From Bacteroidaceae bacterium (GTDB lineage: Bacteria; Bacteroidota; Bacteroidia; Bacteroidales; Bacteroidaceae), in the NCBI GenBank assembly GCA_017540585.1, contig JAFYAT010000082.1:1-47648 (forward strand): DNA of 47,648 bases, in the 5' to 3' direction. Under the pieces are notes generated by a model. The model had not been told where the DNA came from and made no database searches. It was given only the letters and a program-made list of their open reading frames with translations. Below, one piece after another: positions 806 through 37,364 of this stretch. How positions within the stretch are numbered: the first letter of the stretch is position 1; every line of letters starts with the position of its first letter. The translations under genes and the position numbers were made by a program.

Positions 806-889
806 AAAGTACGGACAAAGTACGGACAAAGTACGGACGAATTACGGACGAATAACGGAGGAATAACGGACTATGAACTTTGGGACAAT
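806..889. repeat. 11-bp tandem array (6 units) with a conserved tail
   Basis: Six consecutive 11-bp units of the type aagtacggaca run from 806 to about 872 without a length change, drifting toward aataacggact. They are followed by the tail atgaacttt-g-ggacaat. The same architecture recurs at 6699-6770 with units of aagtactgact and the tail atgaacttt-a-ggacaat. It lies just after the CPBP gene stop. No coding potential is seen. Confidence 0.85.
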
Positions 890-971
890 ACGTATTACTT
901 TACGATATTATATGACGAAAAGCATGACCCGACAGCAGATGGGGGCACAAAAACTTAAAACAAATTATTGG

Positions 972-1148
972 TGTCCGCTAAAAATCTGATAACGTTTTCA
1001 AAGACATTATTTCCTCGGACAGCCGAAATACAGGATGTATATATGCCCCAATATATTGGGAAAACGACAAAATAGAGGCTCTAAATGGCAAATATAACCA
1101 TCTATGGTGTATCTTTTGTCATTTTCTAAGCTGATTTTTTAGCGGACA
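972..1148. mobile_element. Possible MITE or IS remnant with short inverted ends
   Basis: tgtccgctaaaaatc at 972-986 is matched in inverse orientation by gattttttagcggaca at 1133-1148, giving a segment of about 177 bp with inverted ends and no coding capacity. Its right end lies inside the second copy of the 135-bp direct repeat. A further cggacagcc word occurs near 1016. This is read from sequence symmetry alone. No target duplication was established. Confidence 0.4.
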
Positions 1149-1234
1149 GCCATTAACACCCTTTCTAATGGGGCTTGTCCAACAAGAAAACGAGTGTGTT
1201 TAGGCTCTAATGCATGTTTAGCGGACAGTAATAA
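1100..1234. repeat. Direct repeat copy 2, right of the CPBP protease gene
   Basis: Second copy of the repeat at 1-134, in the same orientation. The two copies bracket the CPBP gene and its downstream 11-bp array, so recombination between them would excise about 1.1 kb. Confidence 0.85.
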
Positions 1235-1287
1235 AAACAAATACATTTATCCCGAACAGATTCAAATAAAGTAAGTTTGTTGTCATA

Positions 1288-1323
1288 TTTTGATGTCGGA
1301 TAATCAAAAAATGTTTATCTTTG
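1288..1323 (+). promoter_or_regulatory. Bacteroidota-type promoter for the 54-residue gene
   Basis: TATCTTTG at 1316-1323 matches the -7 consensus TAnnTTTG, with TTTTG at 1288-1292 upstream (spacer slightly long). Transcription would begin just after 1325, so the coding start should be the ATG at 1354, not the TTG inside the promoter. Confidence 0.6.
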
Positions 1324-1353
1324 CCTCGTCAAACAAATCTTAAATGCGTAGAT

Positions 1354-1518
1354 ATGACAATTTTAGAATTAGAAGTACCAGACGATAAAATGGTGCCAAA
1401 GGTAGTTCAGGTATGCAAGATGCTTATTGGCGTGTCATCTGTAAAGGTACAGAGAGAGCCAAAGGCAAAATCTCAACACCAGTTAAACGGTGAGGATGCT
1501 TCTGAGTGTCAAAAATAG
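1354..1518 (+). CDS. Small protein of unknown function (54 residues)
   Basis: Unrecognised small protein starting MTILELEVPDD. It has a predicted short beta strand, a helix (KVVQVCKMLIG) and a charged polar tail. The N-terminal strand-helix layout recalls small DNA-binding antitoxins, but no toxin gene lies beside it, so this is only a guess. It has its own promoter (TATCTTTG at 1316-1323) and ends directly at a strong perfect-stem terminator. Together these make expression likely even though the gene is short. Confidence 0.5.
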   Translation: MTILELEVPDDKMVPKVVQVCKMLIGVSSVKVQREPKAKSQHQLNGEDASECQK

Positions 1519-1561
1519 CTGACGCTCCGTCAACAAAAATTTGACGGAGCGTCAGTTTTTT
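1519..1561 (+). terminator. Strong intrinsic terminator
   Basis: The stem ctgacgctccgtcaa pairs perfectly with ttgacggagcgtcag across a short A-rich loop, followed by six T. It begins immediately after the stop codon of the 54-residue gene. A third partial copy, attgacggagcgt, follows at 1562-1574. Confidence 0.9.
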
Positions 1562-1660
1562 ATTGACGGAGCGTGGGGGATTTGTGTCATAAACACAAAG
1601 TTTACGGATGGAAAGTAGCATGATTTATTATTGTATCTATGATTTTTCGTTATTATATGC

Positions 1661-1690
1661 TTGGGTATTGAGAAAAAGGCAGTATATTTG
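1661..1690 (+). promoter_or_regulatory. Promoter of the toxin-antitoxin operon
   Basis: TATATTTG at 1683-1690 with TTG at 1661-1663 and a 19-bp spacer fits the Bacteroidota promoter well. It lies about 30 bp before the antitoxin ATG at 1720. The downstream bases gcatcgtaaat also follow the fucose synthase promoter at 20121. Confidence 0.7.
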
Positions 1691-1719
1691 CATCGTAAAT
1701 ATTTCAAATAGTAAAGATT

Positions 1720-1917
1720 ATGGCAAGACCAATCAAAGAAACACCAATACTCTATGGTGAAGATGCACGCCGCTTTGAAGCAAGAATGAAGGAGAAACGT
1801 CGTATCTCACCAGAGGAAAGAGCACGTATAAATGAAAGTTATGAGTTATTCATGGATATGTTAAGACGTGGTGAAGAATTAAAGAGACAACGTAATGCAG
1901 CCAAAATTAAATCTTAA
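1720..1917 (+). CDS. Putative antitoxin of a GNAT toxin-antitoxin pair
   Basis: 65-residue, highly charged, mostly helical protein (MARPIKETPILYGEDA...). The N-terminus MARPIKETP resembles small Bacteroidales proteins encoded in front of GNAT acetyltransferases. Its 3' end overlaps the acetyltransferase gene by 23 bp, the tight coupling usual for type II modules, and one promoter at 1661-1690 serves both. It would bind and neutralise the downstream enzyme and probably repress the operon. The assignment as antitoxin rests on size, charge and position, not on a recognised DNA-binding motif. Confidence 0.65.
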   Translation: MARPIKETPILYGEDARRFEARMKEKRRISPEERARINESYELFMDMLRRGEELKRQRNAAKIKS

Positions 1918-2461
1918 GGATCATCAATTGGTTATTTCCAAACTTGACGAAAACGAAACCGTGAAAACATTTGATTGCGGTGATTCAGACTTGAATGACT
2001 TTATCCTTTACGAGAGTCCTCTTTATCGTAAGGAGAAGTTATCTGTTACGTATGTACTGAAGAATGCAGATGACATTAACAATGAACACATAGCTGCTTT
2101 CTTCAGTCTTTCGAATGACCGTATATCTTTGACTGACTTTGACAATAAGACAAAGTACAATCGTTTCAGCCGTCGATTCAACAATCGTAAGCGACTGAAA
2201 AGTTATCCAGCTGCAAAGATAGGCCGTTTGGGAGTTGATATCCTGTATAAAGGACAAGGAGTTGGCGGAAGAGCCTTGGATTTTGTTAAGCGTTATTTTT
2301 CAACTGACAATAAGACTGGTTGTCGTTTTATTACTGTTGATGCGTATGCTGCGGTCATTCCTTTTTATCTCCATAACGGTTTTGTACCACTCAATGACGA
2401 GGATATTGACGAACCTACTCGTCTGTTATTTTTTGACCTTAACGACTTGGATGAAGATTGA
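1895..2461 (+). CDS. GNAT family acetyltransferase, TacT/AtaT-like toxin
   Basis: 188 residues. The opening segment FDCGDSDLNDF (27-36) is typical of the TacT/AtaT branch of GNAT enzymes. The acetyl-CoA loop is GQGVGG (120-125), preceded by the strand IGRLGVD. The C-terminal FYLHNGF (157-163) carries the Tyr that is important in that branch. Known members acetylate the amino acid on charged tRNA and stop translation. The length is slightly above the usual 160-175, owing to a charged insert near 84-102. It overlaps the small upstream gene by 23 bp, supporting a toxin-antitoxin role. A non-toxic acetyltransferase is the alternative. Confidence 0.8.
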   Translation: MQPKLNLKDHQLVISKLDENETVKTFDCGDSDLNDFILYESPLYRKEKLSVTYVLKNADDINNEHIAAFFSLSNDRISLTDFDNKTKYNRFSRRFNNRKRLKSYPAAKIGRLGVDILYKGQGVGGRALDFVKRYFSTDNKTGCRFITVDAYAAVIPFYLHNGFVPLNDEDIDEPTRLLFFDLNDLDED

Positions 2462-2568
2462 AGGAAATAAAATGAAACTTCCATCACTATATCTGCCACT
2501 TTCTGCATCGTAACCATCATGTTTACGAGTAGAAAGTGGCAGTATCTCTTTGTATTAAAAGTTCGGAA

Positions 2569-2653
2569 GTTGCGCAACAACAACTCAAAAGTTGAGGACT
2601 TTGAATCAAATGTTGCGCGTCAATAACAACAAAGTCGAGAACTTTGGAATGAT
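2569..2653. repeat. Two diverged tandem units of about 43 and 42 bp
   Basis: A 43-bp unit (2569-2611) and a 42-bp unit (2612-2653) both begin gttgcgc, continue with an aacaa-rich block, then agt-gag-actttg-aat. A third partial unit (tgacgcacg) follows. Individual words are locally palindromic, for example gttgcgcaac. The unit length is close to four helical turns. The repeat is strongly diverged and could be partly accidental. Confidence 0.5.
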
Positions 2654-2697
2654 TGACGCACGTTGGCATAAAAGTGCCCATGTAGCGTCAATATTTT
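2652..2697. terminator. Probable bidirectional terminator between the GNAT and antiporter genes
   Basis: An outer stem attgacgc (2652-2659) pairs with gcgtcaat (2685-2692) and encloses an inner hairpin GGCA/TGCC (2665-2678), followed by a short T-run. The position between two convergent genes suits a terminator. Confidence 0.5.
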
Positions 2698-2739
2698 ACG
2701 CCCAAAAGCAAGATAAGATGGAAGTGAAGTTGTGTAAAA

Positions 2740-4185
2740 TCACTCTTTATGTTGGGTTATCGTGAGCAGAATGTCACCAGATTGCAATTCGACTTGTCCA
2801 TTAGGAACAATGAAAGAGTTCCCTCGCTTAATCATCATAACAAGAGTGCCGTATGAAAAGTCAAGGTCACATAGACGATGACCTTTGACAAAATCGGCAT
2901 CAGTCAAAGTTTGCTCCGCAAGTTGTGACTCCAATTCTTCAGGTAACTCTATACCAAAATCATTACCAGTCTTAGGTTCTTCTGTAGCAAGTCCAAGCCA
3001 ATGGGCTACGATGGTAATGGTTGTTCCTTGTAACGATAGCGAAAGTAATGTTATTACAAAAACGACATTGAACAGAAAACCAGCATCCTCTATGCCTGCT
3101 ATCACAGGGTATGTGGCGAAAATGATTGGCACAGCTCCACGCAGTCCTACCCATGACAGAAAGAGTTTTGCCTTTACAGGTACATGGAAAGGTTGAAGAC
3201 AGAGGAACACAGCTAATGGCCTTGAGAAGAAAATCATAAAAAGACCTATGGCGATTGCAACTAACCATACGCTAAGCATATCGCTTGGATTGACCAGCAG
3301 GCCAAGCGTAAGGAACATGACAATTTGCAAAAGCCATGTTATACCCTGCATAAATGTATTAGTCTCACGTCGGTATGACATACGGCTATTGCCTGCTACC
3401 AATCCTGCTACATAGACAGCAAGATATCCATTACCCTTCAGTAAATCTGTAAGTGTAAACATAATGAGAATCATACTCAGTACCAGTACGGGATAGAGTG
3501 CAGAATTTGGCAGGTTTATACGATTGACAATCCATACCAAAACACGACCGAGAAGATATCCGAGGAGACCACCAACAGCGAGTTGTCCTACAATCTTTGA
3601 AGCCAGTTCCATGCCAGAAAATCCACCTGATGTTACAATCATATCAACAAGGGCAATGGTCAGTACGTATGCCATCGGGTCATTTGAGCCACTCTCCAAT
3701 TCGAGTATCGGGCGCAAATTGTGCTTCAAACCGATGCCCTGTGAACGCAAGAGATTGAAAACCGATGCGGAATCCGTACTGGAGACCGTAGCTGCAAGCA
3801 ACATGGAAAGAGGCAACGACAAACCGATGTCAAGCCGTGTCCACTCGGAAAGATAATAGATTAACAAGCCGGTAATACCAGTAGTCAGCATGACACCCAC
3901 AGTCGAAAGTATCAGTCCTTGTGTCGCTATGGGCTGAATGTCACGCAACTTAGTGTCCATTCCTCCAGAGAAGAGGATAACACTAAGCGAAAGCATACCT
4001 ATGAGTTGTGCATCCTCGTGACTATGGAACTCTAGCCCAAAGCCCTCGCTGCCAAATAACATACCTGTAAAAAGAAACAGTAACAAAGTAGGAACGCCAA
4101 AACGGTAGCCCCACTTACTGATAACGATGCTTGCAAAGATTAGCACCGAACCAAGGAAAAAGATGTTTTCTGTTGTGAATGTCAT
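2740..4185 (-). CDS. K+/H+ antiporter, CPA1 type (CvrA/NhaP2) with RCK-C domain
   Basis: 481 residues. Residues 1 to about 395 form a multi-spanning sodium/proton exchanger domain with about 12 hydrophobic segments. The family's acidic core is visible in the region SGSNDPMAYVLTIALVD and in the earlier SSTDSASVF. The last roughly 80 residues are soluble and match a TrkA-C/RCK-C regulatory domain (GHRLCDLDF...NGQVELQSGDILLTI). This layout is that of CvrA/NhaP2, which exports K+ (or Na+) in exchange for protons. The gene lies 18 bp after the nhaD-type gene in the same direction, so the two are probably co-transcribed as an ion and pH homeostasis unit. Confidence 0.88.
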   Translation of the reverse strand: MTFTTENIFFLGSVLIFASIVISKWGYRFGVPTLLLFLFTGMLFGSEGFGLEFHSHEDAQLIGMLSLSVILFSGGMDTKLRDIQPIATQGLILSTVGVMLTTGITGLLIYYLSEWTRLDIGLSLPLSMLLAATVSSTDSASVFNLLRSQGIGLKHNLRPILELESGSNDPMAYVLTIALVDMIVTSGGFSGMELASKIVGQLAVGGLLGYLLGRVLVWIVNRINLPNSALYPVLVLSMILIMFTLTDLLKGNGYLAVYVAGLVAGNSRMSYRRETNTFMQGITWLLQIVMFLTLGLLVNPSDMLSVWLVAIAIGLFMIFFSRPLAVFLCLQPFHVPVKAKLFLSWVGLRGAVPIIFATYPVIAGIEDAGFLFNVVFVITLLSLSLQGTTITIVAHWLGLATEEPKTGNDFGIELPEELESQLAEQTLTDADFVKGHRLCDLDFSYGTLVMMIKRGNSFIVPNGQVELQSGDILLTITQHKE

Positions 4186-4203
4186 GCTTGTTTTGTTTTT
4201 AAG

Positions 4204-5544
4204 TTATACGAATGTCTTAATAAGCCAGTAGCATAAGATACCAGACAGATAGCCGATGAATGCAATCCAACTGATATGCTTCATATACCAGCCGAAGGTT
4301 ATTTTCTCAAGTCCCATCACAACGACACCTGCTGCCGAGCCTATGATGAGCGTGGAACCGCCAACTCCTGCACAATAAGCCAGCAACTGCCAGAAGACAC
4401 CATCTACTGCCATCTCACCAGCTTCTGCCACAGGGTACATTCCCATGCAGCCAGCTACAAGCGGAACATTATCGACGATACTGCTCAAGACTCCGATGAT
4501 ACCAGTCACGAGGTAATGATTGCCATTGAACGTACTGTCAAGCGTTTGGCCGAGAGTTGTCAGTACACCGATAGTCTCCAGACAGGCAACAGCCATCAGG
4601 ATGCCAAGGAAGAAGAGTATGGTTGACATGTCGATGCGTGTAAGCATCTGTGACACACGTTTCTGCATAGCTCCATTCTCCTCTGCGCCTTTCAGATGGG
4701 CATAGAAAACCTCGGTCAGCGTCCATAGTACTCCGAGTACTAGCAGGATACCAACGAAAGGTGGCAGATTGGTTACGCTCTTGAAAACCGGTACGAAGAT
4801 GAGACCGCCGACTCCAAGGAAGAATATCGTCTTACGCTGGAATGCTGTCAGTTCATTTGCTTTCTCACGTGTCATCTGCTGTTCTGACAACACGAGTTTG
4901 CCATGAAGCGACAAAGACAACAGCCATGCAGGAATTGCCATTGACATGATTGATGGCAGTATCAACTCACAGAGAACTCCAGCAGCTGTAATGACTCCCC
5001 TGTTCCACAGCATGATTGTCGTTACGTCACCAATCGGGGTAAAAGCGCCACCAGAGTTGGCTGCTATGACCACCATTGATGAGTATATGAGACGTTCGCT
5101 ACGATTATCCACCAGTTTACGGAGAATCATAATCATGACTATCGAAGTGGTAAGATTGTCAAGTATGGCAGACAGGAAAAACGTCATGAAGGCAATGCGC
5201 CACAACAGTTTCTTCTTTGAACGAGTCTTCATAATGTCCCGCACAAAGTTGAAACCGCCATTCTGGTCTATCAATTCGACTATGGTCATTGCCCCCATCA
5301 GGAAGAACAACGTAGTCGATGTAGAGCCAAGATGCTTTTCAATAATGTCATTTACGGTAGAAACCATGTTGTCCCCGACTGCATTTGCGATATAATTGTC
5401 AGGTGCAATCATGAAGAGAGTCCATGTGACTACCATCAGCAGCAAGGCAATTGCAGCCTTGTTGATTCTTGTCACGCCCTCTATGGCTATCAGTACATAG
5501 CCGATGCAGAAGGACGTGACAATCATTAAAGTTAATGTTGACAT
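4204..5544 (-). CDS. nhaD: Na+/H+ antiporter NhaD family
   Basis: 446 residues, about a dozen membrane segments. Hallmarks of the NhaD/ArsB ion-transporter superfamily are present: MGAMTIVELIDQNGGF in the N-terminal half, the SAILDNLTTSIVM segment with Asp-Asn-Leu-Thr-Thr, the ANSGGAFTPIGDVTTIMLW segment, and the mirrored SSIVDNVPLVAG segment in the second half. It would expel Na+ in exchange for protons at alkaline pH. It sits between the K+/H+ antiporter gene and two unrecognised genes, all on the same strand. Confidence 0.88.
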   Translation of the reverse strand: MSTLTLMIVTSFCIGYVLIAIEGVTRINKAAIALLLMVVTWTLFMIAPDNYIANAVGDNMVSTVNDIIEKHLGSTSTTLFFLMGAMTIVELIDQNGGFNFVRDIMKTRSKKKLLWRIAFMTFFLSAILDNLTTSIVMIMILRKLVDNRSERLIYSSMVVIAANSGGAFTPIGDVTTIMLWNRGVITAAGVLCELILPSIMSMAIPAWLLSLSLHGKLVLSEQQMTREKANELTAFQRKTIFFLGVGGLIFVPVFKSVTNLPPFVGILLVLGVLWTLTEVFYAHLKGAEENGAMQKRVSQMLTRIDMSTILFFLGILMAVACLETIGVLTTLGQTLDSTFNGNHYLVTGIIGVLSSIVDNVPLVAGCMGMYPVAEAGEMAVDGVFWQLLAYCAGVGGSTLIIGSAAGVVVMGLEKITFGWYMKHISWIAFIGYLSGILCYWLIKTFV

Positions 5545-5609
5545 ATCATCATTTATGTTTATGTCGTCTGCTGCCGTATGGTTTAATATACGGCAACAGA
5601 CGGAAATGC

Positions 5610-6005
5610 TTACTTGAACAGACGACTGATGATACGAGCCTCTTCACCCTCGAAGATAAGAGTCTCGGTGACAGGTTCATAGTTCAACCTGAGATATTGA
5701 TGAAGCTGGAGTGCAACAAAATTCCAATCACGTGAGCAGCAGACCTCCATCATGTAGTTGCCGTTTACGGTAGGCTTTGGATGATAGTCTCCGATGACAT
5801 CAGAAAGGATTGCTCGAGGAGAAAACATAATATGACGCAGACGTTCTCCATCTGTTGGTGTATATTCTATGGTATGAGCGTCGATAATGCTGTCTGTCGG
5901 TATGTATGTTGCCGTTGTATAGAAGCCGAAAAACGACTTTGAGATATGAACACGCACATCTCGGCAGATGTCATTCCACATCTGCAAGTTCTTTATATTT
6001 GCCAT
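5610..6005 (-). CDS. Conserved-looking hypothetical protein (131 residues)
   Basis: Unrecognised soluble protein beginning MANIKNLQMWNDICRD. It has no signal peptide or membrane segment, a mixed alpha/beta pattern, a Cys-Cys pair (MMEVCCSRDW) and several tyrosines. It lies 65 bp upstream of nhaD on the same strand, so it may be the first gene of the antiporter operon. A regulatory or sensing role for ion transport can only be guessed from the position. No clear -7 element was found in 6006-6093. Confidence 0.6.
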   Translation of the reverse strand: MANIKNLQMWNDICRDVRVHISKSFFGFYTTATYIPTDSIIDAHTIEYTPTDGERLRHIMFSPRAILSDVIGDYHPKPTVNGNYMMEVCCSRDWNFVALQLHQYLRLNYEPVTETLIFEGEEARIISRLFK

Positions 6006-6093
6006 TTGATTTTCTTTTGTTAATGATACATGAATATGCGGTTACCCAGACACGAGCAACCTACATTATAAAAACACAAAAAGGGACATGTAT

Positions 6094-6600
6094 CTAACAA
6101 AGAATGCGCCTCAACGCGATAACGTAATAATGGCGTGGAGACGCAACCACAATCCTGCTACCTGTATCAAGATGGTGCAAGAGAATGGTGAAGAAGCGGC
6201 TAAGGTGAATAGATATGTCTGAAGACAAACGTCCCAACGTTCTGCCAGACTTGCCGCCATGCGTAGGAACATGCTTGACTGTACGTGAACATACGACATT
6301 CTGTACTCCAGAACTTATGAAAGATGCAAAAGAGTTGTCGTGTGACCTGCTTTCATCCTTTCTAGCAAAAACTTTATCGGCAGAAGCACATATCTGCTCC
6401 TTCCTGTCTGTTTTATGCAAAGAGTCACCCACTCTGACTCCTGAAACAGAGCCAGAGAAACCGCTCAACATAATGAGCAAGAAGCAGATTCTAAGCAATA
6501 ATGTATTCACACTTGATTCTCTTTTTACAGGTGCAAAAGTAGAAATAATTATCAAGCATACCAAAGAAATCAGGAACAAAGTCAAGGTATGTTCTATCAT
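6094..6600 (-). CDS. Possible small membrane or secreted protein, unrecognised
   Basis: 168 residues with two N-terminal hydrophobic segments (about 5-24 and 33-50), then a polar middle rich in Ser, Arg and His. The C-terminus is basic-aromatic, ending HYYVIALRRILC. A plausible promoter element, TAAATTTG read on the minus strand, lies at 6614-6621 just before the ATG, which favours this strand. A competing plus-strand frame at 6215-6637 lacks a convincing N-terminus. The gene would head the minus-strand antiporter group. It could still be non-coding. Confidence 0.4.
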   Translation of the reverse strand: MIEHTLTLFLISLVCLIIISTFAPVKRESSVNTLLLRICFLLIMLSGFSGSVSGVRVGDSLHKTDRKEQICASADKVFARKDESRSHDNSFASFISSGVQNVVCSRTVKHVPTHGGKSGRTLGRLSSDISIHLSRFFTILLHHLDTGSRIVVASPRHYYVIALRRILC

Positions 6601-6698
6601 TGCCCCAAATCAGCAAATTTATATGATTGGAGCATGATTCAGCCATTTTCTTTTATGAATAGCATATAAGAAATATTGTATGGGAATCACATAGGTTT

Positions 6699-6770
6699 AA
6701 GTACTGTCAAAGTACTGACTAAGTACTGACGAATTAGAGACTAAGTACTGACTATGAACTTTAGGACAAT
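6699..6770. repeat. 11-bp tandem array (5 units) with a conserved tail
   Basis: Five 11-bp units of the type aagtactgact run from 6699 to 6753, followed by atgaactttaggacaat. The array matches 806-889 in unit length and tail, but the unit base has changed consistently from acggac to actgac. It lies about 170-190 bp upstream of the Ca2+-ATPase promoter. Confidence 0.85.
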
Positions 6771-6938
6771 TGACGGGTGGCAATAAGCAAATTCGTTATT
6801 CGATACGACATTATGGAATTTTATCGATTTATTCCTATATGGACAATACTGGTTGGAAAGTCGGATGTTGCAAAAGATGCTTGAAAGCGGATAAAATGGT
6901 ATTTTAGGAGTTGAGGCTATCTATTCTGTGTTGTTTTA

Positions 6939-6970
6939 TTTTGTCAGGAGGTTTATTTGGAGTAACTTTG
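6939..6970 (+). promoter_or_regulatory. Promoter of the Ca2+-ATPase gene
   Basis: TAACTTTG at 6963-6970 with TTTTG at 6939-6943 and a 19-bp spacer is a good Bacteroidota promoter. It lies 33 bp before the ATG at 7003, which fixes that ATG as the start. Confidence 0.75.
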
Positions 6971-7002
6971 TAGCAAATTCATTCAATCGTAAGTTACGTT
7001 AC

Positions 7003-9591
7003 ATGGAAATAAATTCTGGGTACTTTGCAGATTGCCTCTCGTCTGATTCGGATGAGGTGATAAAGGGCAAAGGACTAAATATCATACCTCCACCAGAGAA
7101 GGAACCACTGTGGAAAGGATTCTTGGAGAAATTCAAGGATCCGCTCATCATTGTGCTTGGTGTCGTGTTCGTGTTCTCCGTAGGCGTGTCGTTGTATGAG
7201 ATTTACTATGCTGGCAAGAGCTGGGAAGTGATGCTCGAACCAGCTGGTGTGTTCATAGCCATGATGCTTGCCACGGGTGTTGGCTTCATCTTTGAGGTCA
7301 AGGCAGGTCAGGAGTTCGACATACTGAACAAGGTCAAGGACTCGCGTCCAGTCAAGGTGATACGTCTTGTTGACGGCAAACCTGTGATGAAAGAGATACC
7401 TAAGTCGGACGTGGTCGCAGGCGACATCGTAAGGCTTGAGAGTGGCGATGAGATTCCTGCCGACGGAGTGGTGGTTGATGCCATCTCGCTCAAGGTGGAT
7501 GAGTCAATATTCACGGGAGAGCCTTATGCCAACAAGAGTGTGGAGCGTAATGAGGTAATGGAGGCAGCATATCCTGCTAATTTCCTTCTTCGTGGTGCAA
7601 CGGTCATCGAGGGTAATGCCGTGATGAAGGTTACAGCCATAGGTATGCAGACAGAGGAAGGCAAGGGTGTGGCAAAGGTACAGGAAGGTAGCGACGTAAA
7701 GACTCCGCTCAACCAGCAGCTTGACAGACTTGGCAAGATGCTTTCCTCTGCAAGTTTGGTTGTTGGTGTACTCATCATCATCGGAAAGCTGATTTTCCTT
7801 TTCAGCGATGGCAACAACTTGAACAACGATGAGCCTATCGAGGTGGTGGAGTATGTGCTTCACTCCCTGATGATAGCCGTAACGCTTATCGTTGTGGCAG
7901 TACCTGAGGGATTGCCAATGAGTATCACGGTAAGCCTTGCCATGAGTATGCGTAAGATGCTGAAGGAAAACAATCTTGTCCGCAAGCTCCATGCCTGCGA
8001 GACGATGGGTGCTGCCACCGTCATCTGTACGGACAAGACGGGTACTCTCACCAAGAACCAGATGACCGTCATGGAGCATCTGTTCTTTGGCAACACAGAT
8101 ATGAGTGCAATAGCCCGAAGCATAGCTGTCAACTCTACAGCCGAACTGACGGAAGAGGGTGGCGAGACACGCCGTATTGGTAATCCTACGGAATGTGCCC
8201 TTATCATGTGGCTTATGCAGGAAGGGTATGACTATCGTCAGTTACGTAACGAGACACACATAACCGAGCAGCAGCCGTTCAGCACCATGACCAAGTACAT
8301 GAAGACGGTTACGGCTGACGGTCATACATACTACAAGGGTGCATCTGAGATACTCCTCGAACATTGTGAGAAGATAGCAGGTGGCTGGACAAGGGAACAG
8401 ATATTTGACAGATTGCATGAGTACCAGTCGAAGGCTATGCGTACACTTGGCTTTGCCATAGACGACACATTTGTGGGCATCGTCGGTATTGCCGACCCTA
8501 TACGTGAGGATGTGGCTGAAGCCATACACGTCTGTCGTGACAACGCCAAGGTGAGAGTGATAATCGTGACGGGCGACACTCCTGGTACAGCCAACGAGAT
8601 AGGCAGGCAGATAGGACTTATCTCCGAGGGCGAGACAGGTACGACAATAACAGGCAGCGAATTTGCTGCCATGAGCGACGAGGAAGCAAGACGACTCCTT
8701 GCCATAAAGGGTGAGAGAAGTCTCAAGGTCATATCACGTGCACGACCAGACGACAAGGCACGACTCGTTACTCTCCTCCAGCAGAATGGCGAGGTGGTTG
8801 CCGTGACAGGTGACGGAACGAACGATGCGCCTGCACTCAGCAAGGCACAGGTGGGTCTCTCCATGGGTGACGGTACGGCACGTGCCAAGGAGGCATCTGA
8901 CATAACAATCATCGATAACTCATTCTCAAGTATAAACAAGGCAATACTCTGGGGTCGTTCACTCTATCAGAACATACGCAGGTTCATCATCTTCCAGTTG
9001 ACCATCAACATGTGTGCCTGCATGATAGTCATGTTCGGTGCCTTCGTGGGTATTGAGTCACCACTTGGTGTGACGCAGATGTTGTGGGTAAACCTTATCA
9101 TGGACACCTTTGCGGCTATGGCTCTGTCTTCGTTGCCTGCCGACAAGAGAGTCCTCAATGAGTCCCCACGTAATCCTGAGAGCAACATAATTGACCGTAG
9201 CATGGCAAAGATGATTCTTGGCTTTGGTATCTTGTTCTTCGGCATCCTTTCGGCTGTATGGCTTTATTTGCCACACGAGTATTTCTTCACCGTGTTCGTG
9301 GTTATCCAGTTCTGGAACATCTTCAACGTGAGGTATTACAACACGGATGGTAGCGTGATAAAGTCCGTGTGTCTGTTCTTCAAGGACAGGGAGACATTTA
9401 AGGCTAATACGAGCATAACATTTGTCTTGATTGCTTTGGTAATCCTCGTAGGACAGATACTCATCACCACCTTTGGCGGTAAGATGTTTGAGGTGGAAAG
9501 GGCACTCACCTTGCAGGAATGGTTGATGATTCTCCTATGTACAAGTCCTGTACTCGTGATACCAGACGGCCTGAGGAGAATTAAAAATTAA
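7003..9591 (+). CDS. P-type calcium-translocating ATPase (type IIB/PMCA-like)
   Basis: 862 residues from the ATG at 7003. Longer in-frame versions would start inside the promoter. The type II P-ATPase order is complete: N-terminal cation ATPase domain, actuator loop with a TGE-type motif (SIFTGEPY), the PEGLP helix 4 motif used for Ca2+ binding, the phosphorylation site CTDKTGTLT, the nucleotide domain, the hinge TGDGTNDAPAL, and six C-terminal membrane helices. It pumps Ca2+ (possibly Mn2+) out of the cytoplasm using ATP. No C-terminal calmodulin-like extension is present. It is divergent from the Na+/K+ antiporter genes, so the region looks like a cation-homeostasis block. Confidence 0.92.
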   Translation: MEINSGYFADCLSSDSDEVIKGKGLNIIPPPEKEPLWKGFLEKFKDPLIIVLGVVFVFSVGVSLYEIYYAGKSWEVMLEPAGVFIAMMLATGVGFIFEVKAGQEFDILNKVKDSRPVKVIRLVDGKPVMKEIPKSDVVAGDIVRLESGDEIPADGVVVDAISLKVDESIFTGEPYANKSVERNEVMEAAYPANFLLRGATVIEGNAVMKVTAIGMQTEEGKGVAKVQEGSDVKTPLNQQLDRLGKMLSSASLVVGVLIIIGKLIFLFSDGNNLNNDEPIEVVEYVLHSLMIAVTLIVVAVPEGLPMSITVSLAMSMRKMLKENNLVRKLHACETMGAATVICTDKTGTLTKNQMTVMEHLFFGNTDMSAIARSIAVNSTAELTEEGGETRRIGNPTECALIMWLMQEGYDYRQLRNETHITEQQPFSTMTKYMKTVTADGHTYYKGASEILLEHCEKIAGGWTREQIFDRLHEYQSKAMRTLGFAIDDTFVGIVGIADPIREDVAEAIHVCRDNAKVRVIIVTGDTPGTANEIGRQIGLISEGETGTTITGSEFAAMSDEEARRLLAIKGERSLKVISRARPDDKARLVTLLQQNGEVVAVTGDGTNDAPALSKAQVGLSMGDGTARAKEASDITIIDNSFSSINKAILWGRSLYQNIRRFIIFQLTINMCACMIVMFGAFVGIESPLGVTQMLWVNLIMDTFAAMALSSLPADKRVLNESPRNPESNIIDRSMAKMILGFGILFFGILSAVWLYLPHEYFFTVFVVIQFWNIFNVRYYNTDGSVIKSVCLFFKDRETFKANTSITFVLIALVILVGQILITTFGGKMFEVERALTLQEWLMILLCTSPVLVIPDGLRRIKN

Positions 9592-9740
9592 GAATTCAAA
9601 ATTCAAAATTTAATGTGGAATTAGAAATGAGGAATTAGGAATGAGTAATAATAAGCACCGTCAGATGTATTTAGCCGAATGGCTATTACTCATTACTAAT
9701 TGCTAATTACTCATTACACATTGCTCATTACTCATCGACA
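9582..9740. repeat. AT-rich word-repeat spacer (aattc and attactcatt words)
   Basis: The spacer begins inside the last codons of the ATPase gene (attaaaaattaag) and runs to a few bases before the CHR start. The left part repeats aattcaaaattcaaaat and gaattaggaatgag. The right part repeats attactcattactaattgc, partly the reverse complement of the left words, so a long imperfect hairpin is possible. Confidence 0.7.
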
Positions 9741-10404: not shown

Positions 10405-10977
10405 ATGGTATTTCTAAAATTATTCATAGTATTCTCAAAGATAGGTATCTTCAACTTTGGTGGAGGATATGCTATGCTTTCACTCATACAGAACGAGGTG
10501 GTGTATAAGAACCATTGGCTCACGGTAAGCGAGTTTACGGACATCGTGGCTGTGAGTCAGTCAACGCCAGGACCTATTGGCATCAACTGTGCCACATACG
10601 CAGGTTATACGGCAGTCATAAACGAGGGTTATCCTGAATGGATGGCTGTGCTCGGAGCAGTCATAGCATCACTCAGCATCATCTGGCTACCATTCATCCT
10701 GATGATACTTATCAGCAAGGCACTCTTGAAGCATAGCAAGTCACGAGGTGTACAATCCGTATTCGGCACACTCCGTCCTGCCATCGTCGGATTACTCGTG
10801 TCGGCAGCCGTGATGCTTATGTCTGAGGAGAACTTTGGCAATCCAAAGGAATCAACATTTGTGTTTATAGTAAGCATACTCATCTTCCTGTTCTCGTTCT
10901 TCGGAACACGCAAATTCAAGATTCATCCGATACTGATGATTCTTCTTTGCGGACTTGCAGGATTGATAATATATTAA
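10405..10977 (+). CDS. Chromate transporter family protein, second half (CHR domain)
   Basis: 190 residues from the ATG at 10405. An earlier in-frame ATG at 10351 would translate the repeat element and is less likely. It has the CHR signature FSKIGIFNFGGGYAM, the SQSTPGPIGIN loop, and about five or six membrane segments. It forms the partner of the CHR protein ending at 10278, and the two would make a heterodimeric anion exporter. The loop PGPIGIN is the usual form of the second protein, whereas the first has PGLFAID. Confidence 0.85.
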   Translation: MVFLKLFIVFSKIGIFNFGGGYAMLSLIQNEVVYKNHWLTVSEFTDIVAVSQSTPGPIGINCATYAGYTAVINEGYPEWMAVLGAVIASLSIIWLPFILMILISKALLKHSKSRGVQSVFGTLRPAIVGLLVSAAVMLMSEENFGNPKESTFVFIVSILIFLFSFFGTRKFKIHPILMILLCGLAGLIIY

Positions 10978-11093
10978 GTTTGTGAGTTTATATGTTTTTG
11001 AGTTTTTTGTTTTCGCAGAATAAGCTATCCGCAAGAACATAAAAACTCACAAACTCAAAAACATAAAAACTTAAACAAACTTAAAAACTCAAA
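10978..11093. repeat. AT-rich inverted word-repeat (aaaaactcaaaaact family)
   Basis: The left arm gtttgtgagtttatatg and following bases are complementary to the right arm built of aaaaactcacaaactcaaaaac words. The element fills the whole gap from the CHR stop to the M16 start. Related words occur at 29237-29287 and 33905-33981. Confidence 0.75.
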
Positions 11094-11096
11094 GAA

Positions 11097-17596: not shown

Positions 17597-17711
17597 GAAC
17601 TATGTAGGTAGTCGTCGGACATACTAGCGCTAACAGGTCACGCAGACTAGTGCTAGTCTGTCATACAAACTAGTACTAGTCTGTAACGCAAACTAGCGCT
17701 AGTCTGGGCGA
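17597..17711. repeat. 23-bp tandem array of CTAG-centred palindromes
   Basis: Palindromic cores start at 17597 (degenerate), 17620, 17643, 17666 and 17689, exactly 23 bp apart. The clearest cores are cagactagtgctagtctg, caaactagtactagtctg and caaactagcgctagtctg. An outer inverted pair (caggtca / cgacctg) encloses the last three. A second array of the same family stands at 37279-37364. Confidence 0.88.
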
Positions 17712-17826
17712 CCTGTTTATGTATGTATTTTAGAGTGTCTTGATAAACTCGTCCCAGTCCTTTGCACCACCCTTCATGTATAACCTGATTTTATTCCTAT
17801 TTTTTATGTATCACGAAGTTTTTCCG

Positions 17827-17834
17827 TATTTTTG
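17827..17834 (+). promoter_or_regulatory. Probable -7 element of the ECF sigma operon
   Basis: TATTTTTG matches TAnnTTTG. It lies about 90 bp before the sigma factor ATG. The -33 element is not clear. Confidence 0.5.
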
Positions 17835-17926
17835 CACCATGAAAAAACATTATGTTGAAAAAAATTGATGATACCATTTGACTTCTGACACTTACAATCG
17901 TATAATGGTTGTAATCACTCAAGAAA

Positions 17927-18478
17927 ATGAAACAAATCGATTCTGAAATATTAACAAGATGCCAAAGTGGAGACAAGGCTGCCTTCCATATTGTGGTGCA
18001 GACATACCAGCAGATGGTGTGGTCGCTCGCTCTTAGGATGCTGTGCGACGTGGAAGAAGCCAAGGATGCCACTCAGGAGGCCTTCATCAAGGTGTGGGTC
18101 AACATCCGAAGATATGACGGGTCGAGTTCTTTCTCTACATGGGTTTACAGCATAGCGTCACGCATCTGCCTCGACAGGATGAAAAAGACAAAGAGGCTTG
18201 TACCTCTGCCAGATGACGAGACGGTACTCAGGGAATATGCTACGGTCAATGATCCACAACGGCAACTGGAAAATGGTGAATGGGTGGCAATACTGCGACT
18301 CCTGTCCGATAATCTGAGTGACAAACAACGACTGGTATTCACTCTCTCGCATCTTGAAGGACTTGATTCTACGGAGATAAGTGCAATAACGGGAATGGAT
18401 GCCAAGCAGATAAAGAGCAACCTATATGTTGCAAGACAAACAATAAGGGAACAACTTAAACGATTGGGATATGAATAA
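17927..18478 (+). CDS. RNA polymerase sigma factor, ECF type
   Basis: 183 residues. Region 2 is visible in VVQTYQQMVWSLALRML, DVEEAKDATQEAFIKVW and FSTWVYSIASRICLDRMKK. Region 4 is visible in LSDKQRLVFTLSHLEGL and the following helix-turn-helix ISAITGMDAKQIKSNL. There is no region 1 or 3, so it is a group 4 (ECF) factor. Its stop overlaps the start of the next gene by 8 bp, which points to translational coupling with a likely anti-sigma protein. The target promoters cannot be read from here. Confidence 0.9.
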   Translation: MKQIDSEILTRCQSGDKAAFHIVVQTYQQMVWSLALRMLCDVEEAKDATQEAFIKVWVNIRRYDGSSSFSTWVYSIASRICLDRMKKTKRLVPLPDDETVLREYATVNDPQRQLENGEWVAILRLLSDNLSDKQRLVFTLSHLEGLDSTEISAITGMDAKQIKSNLYVARQTIREQLKRLGYE

Positions 18479-18893: not shown

Positions 18894-18906
18894 AAAACGA
18901 ATCATT

Positions 18907-21369: not shown

Positions 21370-21491
21370 GCAAGTTAAAAGTTATAAGTTAAAAGTTAAA
21401 AATGCCAGTTATCATAAGGCATATTTAACTTTTAACTTCTTAACTCAACTTTTAACTTTTCATTTTTAACTTTTAACTCTCCGAAGGAGTT
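21370..21491. repeat. aagttaaaagtt word-repeat hairpin ending at a start codon
   Basis: The left arm of repeated aagttaaaag words faces a right arm of repeated taacttttaactt words around the pair atgcc/ggcat. It ends in the small hairpin ctcc-gaa-ggag, placed where a Shine-Dalgarno sequence would be, 2 bp before the response-regulator ATG. The end of the 12371-12515 spacer has the same construction. Confidence 0.8.
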
Positions 21492-25913: not shown

Positions 25914-26403
25914 GTTTTGTTTTGCGCAAAGTTAAGAACATTATCATTCTTTATCAAAGCTTTTTTTACCATTATGTCTTATGTGTCTAAAATAAATACA
26001 CTGTCGTGTCCAGATTTTGGACACGGCAGGTATCTCGATTGATGGAAATATACCACCTTGCGGTGGCTGTTTTTAGAACCCGCTGCCGAGGGCGGCTAAA
26101 TGCGCAATCTGCGCAATCTTTAGGCCAATCTTACCATCTTTTTATTTTATCAATTAGAAAAGTGATTAAATCAGGTTAAAATGTGGGTAGAAATTTTGTT
26201 ATGTGCAGAATAGTTCGTTAATTGGATGTGTTAAATGAAAAATTGGTGAGCCACCAACTGTAAATTGGTGAGTCACCAGTTTGAAAATGGTGGTGCACCA
26301 ATTTTGAAATGGTGAAGCACCAAATTTTAATTGGTGGTACACCAGTTTTCAATTGACCACGGTGAATGATATAAAACAACCGCATAAATATAAAGATTGA
26401 ACC
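25914..26403. other. Divergent intergenic region with palindromic 22-bp array
   Basis: 490 bp between the permease and the HU-like gene. It holds a hairpin cgtgtcca-gatt-ttggacacg (about 26007-26026), a tandem tgcgcaatc pair near 26101, a ccacc/ggtgg hairpin, and the 22-bp array at 26241-26364. No convincing TAnnTTTG promoter was found for the HU-like gene, and no further gene was seen. Confidence 0.5.
26241..26364. repeat. 22-bp tandem array of TTGGTG/CACCAA palindromes
   Basis: Five units start at 26241, 26263, 26285, 26307 and 26329, exactly 22 bp apart, followed by a sixth partial unit. Each has a core such as ttggtg-agc-caccaa, ttggtg-agt-caccag, atggtg-gtg-caccaa or ttggtg-gta-caccag. 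The arms are conserved, while the three central bases and the AT-rich linkers vary. It lies 40-160 bp upstream of the HU-like gene. Confidence 0.9.
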
Positions 26404-33838: not shown

Positions 33839-33904
33839 AAACAGGAATACATAGTTTTTTAGTCAAGATAGAATGCCATCTCAACTATAGAAACTATTCC
33901 ATTT

Positions 33905-33981: not shown

Positions 33982-33983
33982 AT

Positions 33984-34996: not shown

Positions 34997-35022
34997 GAGG
35001 ATGTGCCGATTGGCACATCCTC
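34997..35022. terminator. Bidirectional terminator
   Basis: Perfect stem gaggatgtgcc / ggcacatcctc with a gatt loop, between convergent genes. T-rich flanks occur on both sides. Confidence 0.85.
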
Positions 35023-35048
35023 GTTTATCAATTTGGGCTACACGCATC

Positions 35049-36716
35049 TTATTCACACACAGCACGGATGCTTCGACCGCCTAGGCGGAAAAATATGGCA
35101 TCACCACTATTACGAGTGCTGGAAAAAAAATTTATTCCATACGCAAATTCGCAGCCATTACCATAATCATCCCCATTATAAAGAGAAGATGACCAATAAC
35201 ATCCATACGTACCGACAAGACGATACGTGTCTTCTGCATAATATCCAGCAGTAGGAAGGAATATGTGACAATCAGACAAAGAGTAATTTCCTGTACTCTC
35301 ATGTATTCCATTTTCGCGAACAAATACGCCCTTGTCTGACGGTGTTTTTGCCTTGTAAACAATGTAACCTGCTTTGTTCGTGCCCATATACTTTTTTGAC
35401 CATACCCAATAGCAATTGTTGACAAGTTCTACCCATTCTGAGCACTTTGGCATACGCCATGATTTACCCATGTTTTCACAGGCGGCATCGTCCTTGGCTT
35501 CAAGTGTAGTTTTATGGTCAACAGTGCCTAATGATTCATCCACACAATATTTTGTTAGAGTATTGTAAGCACCATTGCACCACTTGTATGTTGCCCAGGA
35601 AAAACATGTTTTTACGTATGATTGCTGATTGTTATAGTTGTAGTTCATCAAATTGGTTTCATCAGCCTCTCCCAATGCCTTAGTCTCACCCCATGCATAG
35701 TAATTACCATAGTCTAATGGACTTGTTGCTCCTACGTTCATAGTTGCCCATTTCAATCCAGAATCCAAACCAAGGTTAATGTATGGATAACCGTCATTTC
35801 TGCCAGATGCGGAGAAGCACATGTCTGATGTTTTATAGCGATACGCTTTGCCAGCTTCAAGTACCTTACTTTCGAGCAATGCGATATATTCTGTGCCATC
35901 GCTTGCTACGGCTGTAAGTTGTAGTTCACCTGTTGTAGTAGGGAGTGCCGCAAAATAAGCCACAAGTTCCTTGTTGTTCTCTGTCGTAGTTATGTTGTTA
36001 AACGCAAGGCTGACGCTTGAAGTTGTAGCTATGGATTTAATCTCACCAGTTGAGACGTTCATAGTTGCAGAAGTAACCCATACATTTTCGCCCATTTGGT
36101 TCGAGAGTGCTATGCTCTTCCATGTAGCAGCAACAGGCATGGTGAGTTTGAACTGAATAATGGCTATGGCATGATTGAAGTCAAACACAACTTCATGAGT
36201 TGAGCCATTAGCACAACCCTCCTCAGAGAATGTGGAAGGTGCATACATATAGTCATACTTCTTGCCAATGGTTGCGAGTGTGCCATCCTGCCCCGTCATG
36301 TCGATAGGTACGGATGTGTAAGGTGTAGATGATGGTATATCACCATTGTAGGGAGAATATGCTGCGTATGTATTCCCTTTCTTGAGAGCCCAACCTGCAC
36401 CGTCAAACGAAGCATAGTGAGCATCATTCTCACAATTGCCTGTGTTGATGTTCAATGCCTGTTTAGCCTGATTGTTTGACTCAGGAGTGATAGGGAACAC
36501 ACCAAGTGCATCATAGCTTGCCCATGCAAAGCTGATGCCGTTGTCCGTAGCCGTGAGTGATGTACGTGTGTCATCATCATACACGAAAGGTTTGCTCTTG
36601 ATTGTCACTCGTTCAATGTCACCCTCGGCAACATTGTTCACGTTCATGTCTGCCAGCTCCGACGTACATGAGGCAAGCAGAACCATAGGAAGGATGTGAA
36701 GGATTGTCTTTTTCAT
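35049..36716 (-). CDS. Fimbrillin-family lipoprotein with C-terminal FISUMP-like domain
   Basis: 555 residues. The lipobox LLASC gives acylated Cys16. Residues about 20-280 resemble fimbrillin/Mfa-type proteins (DDTRTSLTATDNGISFAWASYDALGVFP). Residues about 315-555 form a separate domain, starting YINLGLDSGLKWATMNVGA and continuing with SWRMPKCSEWVELVNNC and IFLPTAGYYAEDTYRLVG. These match the Fibrobacter succinogenes major-paralogous-type domain found on many Bacteroidota surface proteins. It is probably a surface adhesin or pilus tip component. A 60-residue gene precedes it by 3 bp in one operon. Confidence 0.8.
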   Translation of the reverse strand: MKKTILHILPMVLLASCTSELADMNVNNVAEGDIERVTIKSKPFVYDDDTRTSLTATDNGISFAWASYDALGVFPITPESNNQAKQALNINTGNCENDAHYASFDGAGWALKKGNTYAAYSPYNGDIPSSTPYTSVPIDMTGQDGTLATIGKKYDYMYAPSTFSEEGCANGSTHEVVFDFNHAIAIIQFKLTMPVAATWKSIALSNQMGENVWVTSATMNVSTGEIKSIATTSSVSLAFNNITTTENNKELVAYFAALPTTTGELQLTAVASDGTEYIALLESKVLEAGKAYRYKTSDMCFSASGRNDGYPYINLGLDSGLKWATMNVGATSPLDYGNYYAWGETKALGEADETNLMNYNYNNQQSYVKTCFSWATYKWCNGAYNTLTKYCVDESLGTVDHKTTLEAKDDAACENMGKSWRMPKCSEWVELVNNCYWVWSKKYMGTNKAGYIVYKAKTPSDKGVFVRENGIHESTGNYSLSDCHIFLPTAGYYAEDTYRLVGTYGCYWSSSLYNGDDYGNGCEFAYGINFFSSTRNSGDAIFFRLGGRSIRAVCE

Positions 36717-36719
36717 ATC

Positions 36720-36902
36720 TCAGTTGGAAAAGATTTGGTTAAGTTGTTTACTCTCGTCTGATGCCACGCCGTCCACTGAACGTTTACGTGCATTCCAGCC
36801 CTCAAAGTCTTTGGCTTTCACCACTTGACTGCCTGCAAGAATAGAGGCTCTAAGCCCTGACTTACGCACCTCACAAAGAGGTGCAGAATAAAATTTTGCC
36901 AT
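36720..36902 (-). CDS. Small protein of unknown function upstream of the fimbrillin-like gene
   Basis: 60 residues (MAKFYSAPLCEVRKSG...), basic, without a signal peptide. Short proteins with a YxAPxCEV-type start are frequent in Prevotella in front of surface-protein genes, but their function is unknown. It ends 3 bp before the fimbrillin-like start, and a good promoter (-7 complement 36941-36948, TACTTTTG; TTTG complement at 36968-36971, 19-bp spacer) lies upstream, so it heads a two-gene operon. Confidence 0.6.
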   Translation of the reverse strand: MAKFYSAPLCEVRKSGLRASILAGSQVVKAKDFEGWNARKRSVDGVASDESKQLNQIFSN

Positions 36903-36940
36903 CTTAGTTTTGCTTTTAGGTTTTTAGTTTATTGTCGTGG

Positions 36941-36971
36941 CAAAAGTAAACATTTTCTGTAAATTAACAAA
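36941..36971 (-). promoter_or_regulatory. Promoter of the small-protein / fimbrillin operon
   Basis: On the minus strand TTTG (36968-36971) and TACTTTTG (36941-36948) are 19 bp apart, an ideal Bacteroidota promoter. The first ATG is 39 bp downstream. Confidence 0.7.
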
Positions 36972-37094
36972 AAGAAGAGCGAGCATAATGAGGAAAAAAA
37001 AGGCGTTCTGCATAGTCCTTTGGAAATTGAATGTCAATTATTGATTTTGACCGCTCTATGTGAGTAATAAAAACATACCCAAAGTGGAGTGAAA

Positions 37095-37261
37095 ATCATA
37101 CGAGGTATGATGTGCAACATCGAACGAGGATTAATATATCACATCGAATGAGGATTGATGTGCAACATCAAACGAGGTAAGATATGCCATATCGAACGAG
37201 GTACGATGTGCAACATCGTATAAGGATTGATGTGCAACATCGATAGGTATCGAATTGGCAT
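37095..37261. repeat. 24-bp tandem array of GATGT/ACATC palindromes
   Basis: Units start at 37095, 37119, 37143, 37167, 37191, 37215 and 37239. Six are exactly 24 bp, the seventh is 23, and a partial unit follows. The shared pattern is atcgaacgagg-nn-gatgtgcaac. Across unit borders gatgt-gca-acatc forms a dyad. In the unit at 37167 both arms have changed together to gatat and atatc. Confidence 0.9.
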
Positions 37262-37278
37262 ATCGATGTTGGGTCTCT

Positions 37279-37364
37279 CAGACTAGCGTTAGTTTGTATG
37301 ACAGACTAGCGTTAGTCTGCAATACAAACTAATGCTACTTTGTTCACAAACTAGCATTAGTTTG
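37279..37364. repeat. CTAG-centred palindromic array, second locus
   Basis: Cores start at 37279, 37302, 37325 and 37347 (spacing 23, 23, 22). Two cores are perfect 18-bp dyads: cagactagcgttagtctg-type and caaactagcattagtttg. It is the same family as 17597-17711 and directly follows the unrelated 24-bp array. Confidence 0.88.

Follow-up and report, generated by a model that had tools for sequence, protein, structure and literature searches.

Intergenic tandem arrays with preferred unit lengths in a Bacteroidaceae genome and their probable division into several classes

REP and REPIN elements consist of short palindromes that recur in non-genic DNA, frequently close to the 3′ ends of genes. 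Porphyromonas gingivalis belongs to the same order as the Bacteroidaceae bacterium studied here. One report describes BrickBuilt, in P. gingivalis ATCC 33277, as a miniature inverted-repeat transposable element (MITE) made of imperfect 23-nt tandem repeats, present in 19 dispersed and always intergenic copies, with predicted long stem-loops, dyad symmetry, a leader and a tail outside the repeats and a unit number that varies between copies (PMC4596501). A second report documents direct repeats of the heptamer TAACTGA in Beggiatoaceae, Cyanobacteria and five Bacteroidetes as pure 7-bp tandems, mostly intergenic and often just before start codons, with other heptamers too in some Bacteroidetes regions (PMC4679880), and a third gives PhoP sites as 7-bp direct repeats with a 4-bp spacer (PMC4832192). 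Here, we analyzed the short tandem arrays of contig JAFYAT010000082.1, taken whole (47,648 bp; hereafter the window), which is contig C1 of a 149-contig, 3.62-Mb Bacteroidaceae assembly (genome coded G000). On balance, these arrays probably do not form one class and comprise BrickBuilt-like mobile dyad elements, a separate promoter-associated 11-bp element (the TACTGAC family, family 1) and heptamer-type repeats of 7-8 bp.

Array periods in the window, the genome and related bacteria

Tandem arrays were detected with Tandem Repeats Finder (TRF, score threshold 40). An initial annotation, made from the letters of the window, had listed six intergenic arrays in four unrelated sequence families; all six were called by TRF (Table 1), all six lie outside genes, and the four families were recovered, with 806 and 6698 in one of them and 17637 and 37282 in another. 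A seventh array proposed at 2569 gave no TRF call; the zone 2555-2690 is a piece of a dispersed element that has, besides itself, 7 matches at 6 genomic places, 3 of them with E below 0.01. Periods had also been said to fall at whole helical turns. This does not hold overall, as 13 of the 26 arrays that the window contains at the TRF threshold have 7-8-bp units, and it is true only if those are set aside; 3 more arrays have 14-18-bp units of similar A/T-rich kind. Three 9-11-bp arrays and two 7-bp arrays of the window lie wholly within genes.

The genome census covered the window and 38 stretches picked irrespective of repeats (579,113 bp in total), namely the first 20 kb or less of C2-C23, C26-C36 and C38-C42, with C24, C25 and C37 omitted because they had been fetched as hits. 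Genes were called with a self-trained, home-made Markov model, which gave a coding fraction of 81% and missed at least one likely gene (175-792); the control consisted of dinucleotide shuffles, 10 replicates in one run and 5 in another. The sample holds 194 intergenic arrays against 8.5 (10 shuffles) or 10.4 (5 shuffles) per shuffle, which rules out a chance origin, and their density is 183 per 100 kb of intergenic DNA against 8.7 per 100 kb of coding DNA (41 arrays in 471 kb), i.e. about 20-fold. Unit lengths are far from evenly distributed, with intergenic peaks at 10-11 bp (66 arrays vs 1.4 shuffled) and 21-23 bp (17 arrays, including 13 at 22 bp, vs 0.8). Neither outcome that would have counted against the initial annotation, an even spread of unit lengths or arrays as frequent inside genes as outside them, was thus observed. 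The expected peaks at multiples of about 11 bp were found near 11 and 22, but arrays of 7-8 bp (64) are as common as those of 10-11 bp (66), and the commonest single period, 7 bp (44 arrays), corresponds to no helical turn. By single period, arrays of 8 bp (20), 9 bp (9), 10 bp (29), 11 bp (37), 12 bp (6) and 14 bp (9) were also counted; every other period except 22 bp had at most four. An effect of the repeat finder was rejected because a TRF-independent 6-mer lag spectrum likewise peaks at 7, 11 and 22. In this genome the spectrum has its peaks at 7, 8, 11, 14, 16, 22 and 24, and of the higher multiples of 11, 33, 44 and 66 are prominent but 55 is not; a raised value is also seen at 32.

Four further sets were compared: 50 MurF-Alr neighbourhoods from related Bacteroidaceae of rumen and horse (relatives set, one locus read per species); 29 loci from Phocaeicola, Bacteroides, Paraprevotella, Prevotella and others (distant set); 20 stretches of genus mates unlinked to the MurF-Alr place; and 19 loci from other orders of the same class. 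The best 80 MurF-Alr loci share one genomic neighbourhood and related species are therefore non-independent; one stretch in a 20-stretch comparison sample was only 1 kb long. By the best segment of the MurF-Alr protein, the nearest named relatives are RGIG8147 (95% amino-acid identity) and then RGIG3434 (83%), in a search from which the genome's own records were possibly excluded. Intergenic arrays of 21-23 bp numbered 31 in 86 kb in the relatives set, 18 in 51 kb in the distant set and 8 in 31 kb in the genus mates, with 0-0.2 in shuffles, and there were none in 52.6 kb of the 19 other-order loci. The preference for 21-23 bp is real among the Bacteroidaceae sampled. By a crude clustering in which some joins look accidental, 58 intergenic arrays of this length fall into 43 sequence families, and the 22-bp dyad kind occurs with unrelated sequences in Phocaeicola, Bacteroides, Prevotella and the rumen relatives; such recurrence across the family goes beyond what the initial annotation could see. 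Arrays of 10-11 bp were counted 66 times in 106 kb in this genome, 18 times in 86 kb in the relatives, 5 times in 51 kb in the distant set and 5 times in 31 kb in the genus mates. The 11-bp signal is nonetheless not restricted to this genome, because the lag spectrum of the distant set is equally strong per kb and shows a clean series at 11/22/33/44/55/66. In E. coli, 4.7 kb of intergenic sequence yielded a single 21-bp array, too little to weigh, and no published 22-bp rule for Bacteroidaceae was found among the open-access papers searched, which is no proof of absence.

Relaxed B-DNA has 10.5 bp per turn, and two turns amount to 21 bp. Arrays of 22 bp outnumber those of 21 bp by 13:1 in this genome, 20:6 in the relatives set and 14:4 in the distant set; in the genus mates, 23 bp (6 arrays) exceeds 22 bp (2). 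Strict helical phasing is thus unsupported: the module lies closer to 11.0 bp, and in three of the four Bacteroidaceae sets arrays of 22 bp lead those of 21 bp by a wide margin. An 11-bp module would fit underwound DNA or an A-form duplex.

In seven relatives, a 23-bp dyad array lies at a similar distance upstream of MurF-Alr (L102 9160, L104 9251, L108 9196, L110 3576, L111 9289, L113 4157 and L143 8386). The core sequence of these arrays differs between some species, and TTTTT follows several of them.

Dyad arrays of 21-24 bp and their likeness to BrickBuilt

The initial annotation had assigned a palindrome to the 22-24-bp types. Dyad symmetry was tested with 50 shuffled units per array and counted at p≤0.04, short units giving low power. 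At period 22 it was found in 9 of 19 arrays of this genome, 8 of 30 in the relatives and 6 of 14 in the distant set (23/63 overall), and at period 23 in 6 of 12 arrays of the relatives set. At period 21 the corresponding figures for this genome, the relatives and the distant set were 1/8, 2/18 and 3/9, and the listed periods from 7 to 20 gave 3 arrays in total. The dyad is thus significant as a class for units of 22-23 bp, and none of the 10- or 11-bp units tested was significant. Furthermore, 52 of 148 arrays of 20-25 bp (15 + 37 of 46 + 102) lie within an inverted repeat scoring at least 14, and for 31 of these 52 (8 + 23) the score was reached by none of 20 flank shuffles per array; because shuffled flanks fail to reach the score, the inverted repeat extends beyond the array. 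These rows are partly non-independent, L159 being identical to L163 in sequence and two L097 rows sharing one repeat.

Dispersal was followed in the GTAACTC family, which has 22 matches at 12 places in this genome and one further place in the near relative G020. Twelve copies were aligned (11 of the 12 places, the short C92 match being omitted, plus the G020 copy): the common core is about 105 bp at most, pairwise identity is 75-96%, and most flanks differ. Three copies (L193, L203 and L204) are one unit shorter, as counted by eye. In support of dispersal, the orthologous gene of G020 has no such element beside it at 2 of 2 loci tested. Several copies share end sequences outside the units, the ends of the element not being fixed to the base, and the family is present in both convergent and divergent gaps. 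Another, very abundant dispersed repeat was observed at L198 (about 1885-2090 and 2095-2235), which takes most of the query's 76 matches in G020, at 67-98% identity (C16:10-183, C6:9196-9355, C151:1-148 and others, several at contig ends).

Altogether, the 22-24-bp dyad arrays would mostly be the interiors of small non-coding intergenic elements, roughly 80-190 bp long, each of which forms an inverted repeat over its full length and resembles BrickBuilt and other MITEs. The dispersal of the GTAACTC and 24-bp families indicates that such elements may spread as units, presumably moved by a transposase acting in trans. Copies differing by whole 22-bp units presumably arose by unequal exchange or slippage, and the dyads would most simply be sites for a dimeric DNA-binding protein, either a transposase or a host protein. 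As mismatches in the arms show no G.U bias, the dyad symmetry appears to be a DNA-level property, through selection or origin. With BrickBuilt as described, the arrays studied here share dyad-symmetric tandem units of about 23 nt, dispersed copies (12 places for GTAACTC, several contigs for the 24-bp family) and an intergenic position, checked here for the six window arrays. In contrast to BrickBuilt, many sequence families are involved here, the units measure 21-24 bp and usually number 2-5, and the inverted ends are not tied to a known insertion sequence. The likeness is one of description, and no membership of the P. gingivalis family is claimed.

The 11-bp and 7-8-bp classes and the features of the window

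At E≤1e-3, family 1 is represented by 13 copies in this genome and by 6 in G020, and by none at that threshold in the other 43 of the 45 genus genomes searched. All 19 copies share one build by eye, in-register 11-bp units followed by a tail that reads TATGAACTTTAGGACAA or a close variant, and the number of units is nearly fixed at five or six. The 13 copies of this genome lie in 9 divergent, 3 tandem and 1 convergent gaps, a divergent preference with P = 4e-5 against the 17% background by intergenic length and 0.004 at an assumed 30%. Three of the 6 G020 copies share flanks by eye with a copy here, so that the element can stay put across species. The downstream genes examined are mixed and encode OTCase, NusB, a P-type ATPase, a lyase and others. 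A Bacteroides -33/-7 promoter at a fixed distance from the element was not seen; TAnnTTTG is present at the left array end in 4 of the 19 copies. Family 1 is probably a separate promoter-associated element and, since its head-to-tail geometry of 7+4 bp is that of OmpR/PhoB-type tandem operators, a predicted regulatory site. It resembles those operators in its 11-bp direct repeats upstream of genes and departs from them in having five or six units and a fixed tail, and no function common to its neighbouring genes was seen.

One of the two window copies lies within a conspicuous tract: window 2738-7200 and RGIG8147 (L096) 306-4700 share about 4.4 kb that is near-identical (99.7% on the left) in a background of about 85%. 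Identity is 3932/3943 at 2738-6680 and 131/131 at 6870-7000, and falls to about 85% past 7200. The array zone 6681-6792 forms an 83% island (93/112), followed by a length difference of about 68 bp. Judging from these alignments, this zone may either have been replaced or left out in a recent exchange or be unusually fast-changing.

The arrays of 7-8 bp number 64 in the intergenic part of the 579-kb sample. Arrays of this type stand as inverted pairs beside gene starts and stops at window 21372-21478, 42267-42432, 9579-9735 and 10974-11097; in the first of these pairs the inverted-partner scores are 23 and 24, against about 8 and about 12 in shuffles. Those near starts and stops would resemble the heptamer repeats previously reported in Bacteroidetes. 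They are likewise tandem, mostly outside genes and near starts; unlike the TAACTGA repeats, they comprise many different heptads and octads, often in inverted pairs, at stops as well as at starts.

Table 1. Repeat features of the window (TRF, Tandem Repeats Finder call; strand given where assigned)
Feature	Position	Strand	Remarks
Family 1 element, 11-bp direct-repeat array (TACGGAC + 4)	806..888	+	TRF array 806-878 (11 bp); 17-nt conserved tail TATGAACTTTGGGACAA at 872-888; 13 genome matches at E≤1e-3 including itself; copies compared
Member of a dispersed element (proposed earlier as a 42-43-bp array)	2555..2690	.	No TRF call; matches on C58 (85%), C146 (84%), C9 (E 0.0015) and C43 (weak)
Second family 1 element	6698..6769	+	TRF array 6698-6752 (11 bp), AAGTACTGACT units; tail TATGAACTTTAGGACAA at 6753-6769; orthologous copy in RGIG8147 (L096)
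23-bp dyad array	17634..17715	.	TRF 17637-17706; inverted ends CAGGTC / GACCTG by eye; best inverted repeat 17614-17734, equalled by 0/20 flank shuffles
Heptad arrays in inverted pair (AAGTTAA, then TTTAACT)	21372..21478	.	TRF; example of the 7-8-bp class; close upstream of a response-regulator gene
22-bp dyad array, core TGGTG-NNN-CACCA	26240..26355	.	TRF; 48 bp upstream of a HU-HIG domain gene; sole other genomic place at E≤1e-3 on C114; inverted repeat matched by 1/20 flank shuffles
24-bp array (ATCGAACGAGG...GATGTGCAAC), dispersed family	37095..37243	.	TRF 24/48/72 bp; related DNA on C109, C47, C60, C11, C25, C37 and C74
23-bp dyad array	37273..37370	.	TRF 37282-37364; bounded by GTCTCTCA / TGAGAGAC by eye; architecture also at L096 12549-12645
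Short additional 11-bp intergenic array	39235..39262	.	TRF; absent from the initial annotation
Heptad arrays in inverted pair (AAGTGAA within the start of a called gene; TTTTCAC)	42267..42432	.	TRF; inverted-partner score 26 for the second array

Elsewhere in the window, positions 1720-2461 hold an open reading frame of 65 amino acids followed by an overlapping GNAT acetyltransferase gene, a layout like that of a toxin-antitoxin pair.

One process or several

Several results weigh against the division into BrickBuilt-like elements, family 1 and heptamer-type repeats. (i) Of the 148 arrays of 20-25 bp, 96 stay below the inverted-repeat score, and two window arrays fail the flank test, the one at 26240 and the one at 37282, whose best inverted repeat (37278-37342) was matched by 3 of 20 flank shuffles. 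(ii) Three GTAACTC groups (L192/L194/L196/L197, L199/L201 and L200/L204) share longer flanks, which duplication of larger pieces would explain equally well. (iii) At each of the two G020 loci without the GTAACTC element, only one flank matched. (iv) Neither a transposase nor a target-site duplication nor a precise empty site was demonstrated; no search was aimed at a transposon with such ends, and none for duplications was systematic. (v) Mobility is indicated for few families only, because most 22-bp families of the relatives were seen once, at one locus per species. (vi) No common function was seen among 10 genes downstream and 10 upstream of family 1, which makes a weak case for a regulon. 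(vii) Arrays of every class tend to have a nearby inverted partner, as would suit one shared origin. (viii) Compensated double changes within arrays are at chance level, 2 against about 1.4 expected in 19 arrays, and with no excess they were rejected as proof of selection on the dyads. Two cases noted by eye go against this last result. On C114, an array of about 11 units spaced near 22 bp (L077 181-430, outside those 19) switches its core partway from TTGGTG...CACCAA to TTGACG...CGTCAA; and between window 37273-37370 and L096 12549-12645 the arms changed from ACTAG..CTAGT to ACTAT..ATAGT.

A single process behind all arrays, as the initial annotation had proposed, was not shown; its observation was partly confirmed and its interpretation partly supported, and at least three mechanisms fit better. 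In a modified form, one process would make or keep face-aligned repeats by hairpin-templated copying, i.e. template switching at fold-backs, which lays down blocks of about 7-8 and about 11 bp in direct and inverted orientation, so that tandem arrays become the arms of inverted repeats. We regard this as unlikely, in spite of the evidence that speaks for it. In this genome, 22 of 66 arrays of 10-11 bp have an inverted partner within 200 bp against 3 with a direct one, and 26 of 64 arrays of 7-8 bp against 8; in the other Bacteroidaceae loci, the figures are 14 of 31 against 4 and 23 of 76 against 8. Intergenic 8-mer pairs at most 200 bp apart reach 29.8 (direct) and 21.4 (inverted) per kb here, against 4.5 and 4.1 in shuffles, and 9.0 and 9.6 per kb in other orders, against 4.9 and 5.1, an excess of about four- to eightfold in Bacteroidaceae and about twofold in other orders. 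The lag series of the distant set points in the same direction. The SbcD complex cuts hairpins in E. coli, and no SbcD match at E≤1e-10 was obtained in 12 of 12 genus members, two of which are only 86% complete. SbcD is, however, missing also in 13 of the 19 other-order genomes (12 of the 13 having been sampled, in a set without a 22-bp peak), and the control Bacteroides ihuae has a match, whose cut-off status is unstated; its loss is therefore insufficient as the cause of long palindromes. Copying of this kind is also at odds with the dyad of the 22-bp units and its absence from those of 10-11 bp, with the different places of the classes relative to genes, and with the near-fixed unit number and fixed tail of family 1, unlike what free copying would leave.

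The inverted partners and the excess of 8-mer pairs best support a single underlying process, and for this reason a wider reading was kept alive, though it seems improbable to us. In it, a process or factor common to the Bacteroidaceae lineage would hold unrelated non-coding elements to a module of about 11 bp or twice that length. Blocks of 11 bp would be set head to tail or, alternately inverted, as 22-bp dyads in inverted-repeat elements, with sequences changing between species and the geometry kept.

It is likewise doubtful that the arrays of 11 and 22 bp all act as operators for a large range of regulators or nucleoid proteins, their period being set by selection for binding on the same face. 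The dyad-arm columns are more conserved than the rest (0.916 vs 0.792, in 29 of 40 arrays), although this measure is biased, noisy columns pairing less often; OmpR/PhoB-type sites such as those of PhoP (PMC4832192) have the same 7+4 build as the 11-bp arrays, and family 1 prefers divergent gaps. On the other hand, in the relatives the 22-bp arrays tend towards the 3′ ends of genes (in tandem gaps, 16 nearer the stop and 4 nearer the start; 13 convergent vs 7.9 expected), the GTAACTC family occurs in convergent as well as divergent gaps, operators have no need of inverted ends outside the units, and 22 exceeds 21. The tendency towards 3′ ends was observed in the relatives; no convergent excess appears in the smaller sets, with 10 arrays from this genome and 5 from the genus mates.

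The same bias to 3′ ends in the relatives would suit RNA hairpins, with the 22-bp dyad arrays acting as tandem transcription terminators or 3′-end stabilisers, as would the TTTTT after several of the arrays upstream of MurF-Alr and the stable folds of 18 chosen examples (minimum energy -27 to -93 kcal/mol, mostly one long hairpin, with no shuffled control). We nevertheless consider this function very unlikely. T-runs are not enriched overall at array ends (6/58 vs 7/58 in the opposite sense), so that the arrays as a set do not show the hairpin-plus-T-run pattern of terminators; arm mismatches on the presumed transcript strand show no preference for G.U (G.T 62, A.C 68, in the 24 of 39 arrays with a strand); and no Rfam family reached its gathering score in the window.

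REP/REPIN elements moved by RAYT, a Y1 transposase, are the least credible source: they share with the dyad arrays short intergenic palindromes, often at gene 3′ ends, and the genome has one Y1 match (C31:18655-19002) with palindromes on both sides, but these (CGTAGGTTCTACGAACCCACGG and GACGGTTTCACCGTC) differ by eye from the window arrays, the tandem spacing of about 22 bp has no counterpart and shows no link to that single match, only this genome exceeds the cut-off among the 4 of 7 genus genomes with a match at E≤1e-3, and 81 of 118 genomes of a phylum sample have Y1 matches over the cut-off, yet the 19 other-order loci show no 22-bp peak. At C31 (L085) 17680-19200, the Y1 (RAYT-like) gene at 18649-19092 stands among repeated copies of CGTAGGTTCTACGAACCCACGG and GACGGTTTCACCGTC, with which it probably forms a REP/RAYT system that has no relation to the arrays.

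Taken together, these results show that a bacterial family common in gut and rumen has intergenic DNA with many short repeats, whose units favour certain lengths. Because 22 bp is preferred to 21 bp, the geometric claim can be tested directly. If a lineage-wide 11-bp module exists, it would imply that some recognition or copying machinery responds to spacing and symmetry and not to sequence. Should the 22-bp dyad elements prove to be a widespread class like BrickBuilt, variable in sequence but constant in geometry, they may serve as markers for strain typing, could be regulators of adjacent genes, and would offer a handle on a DNA-binding or transposition factor of the Bacteroidaceae.

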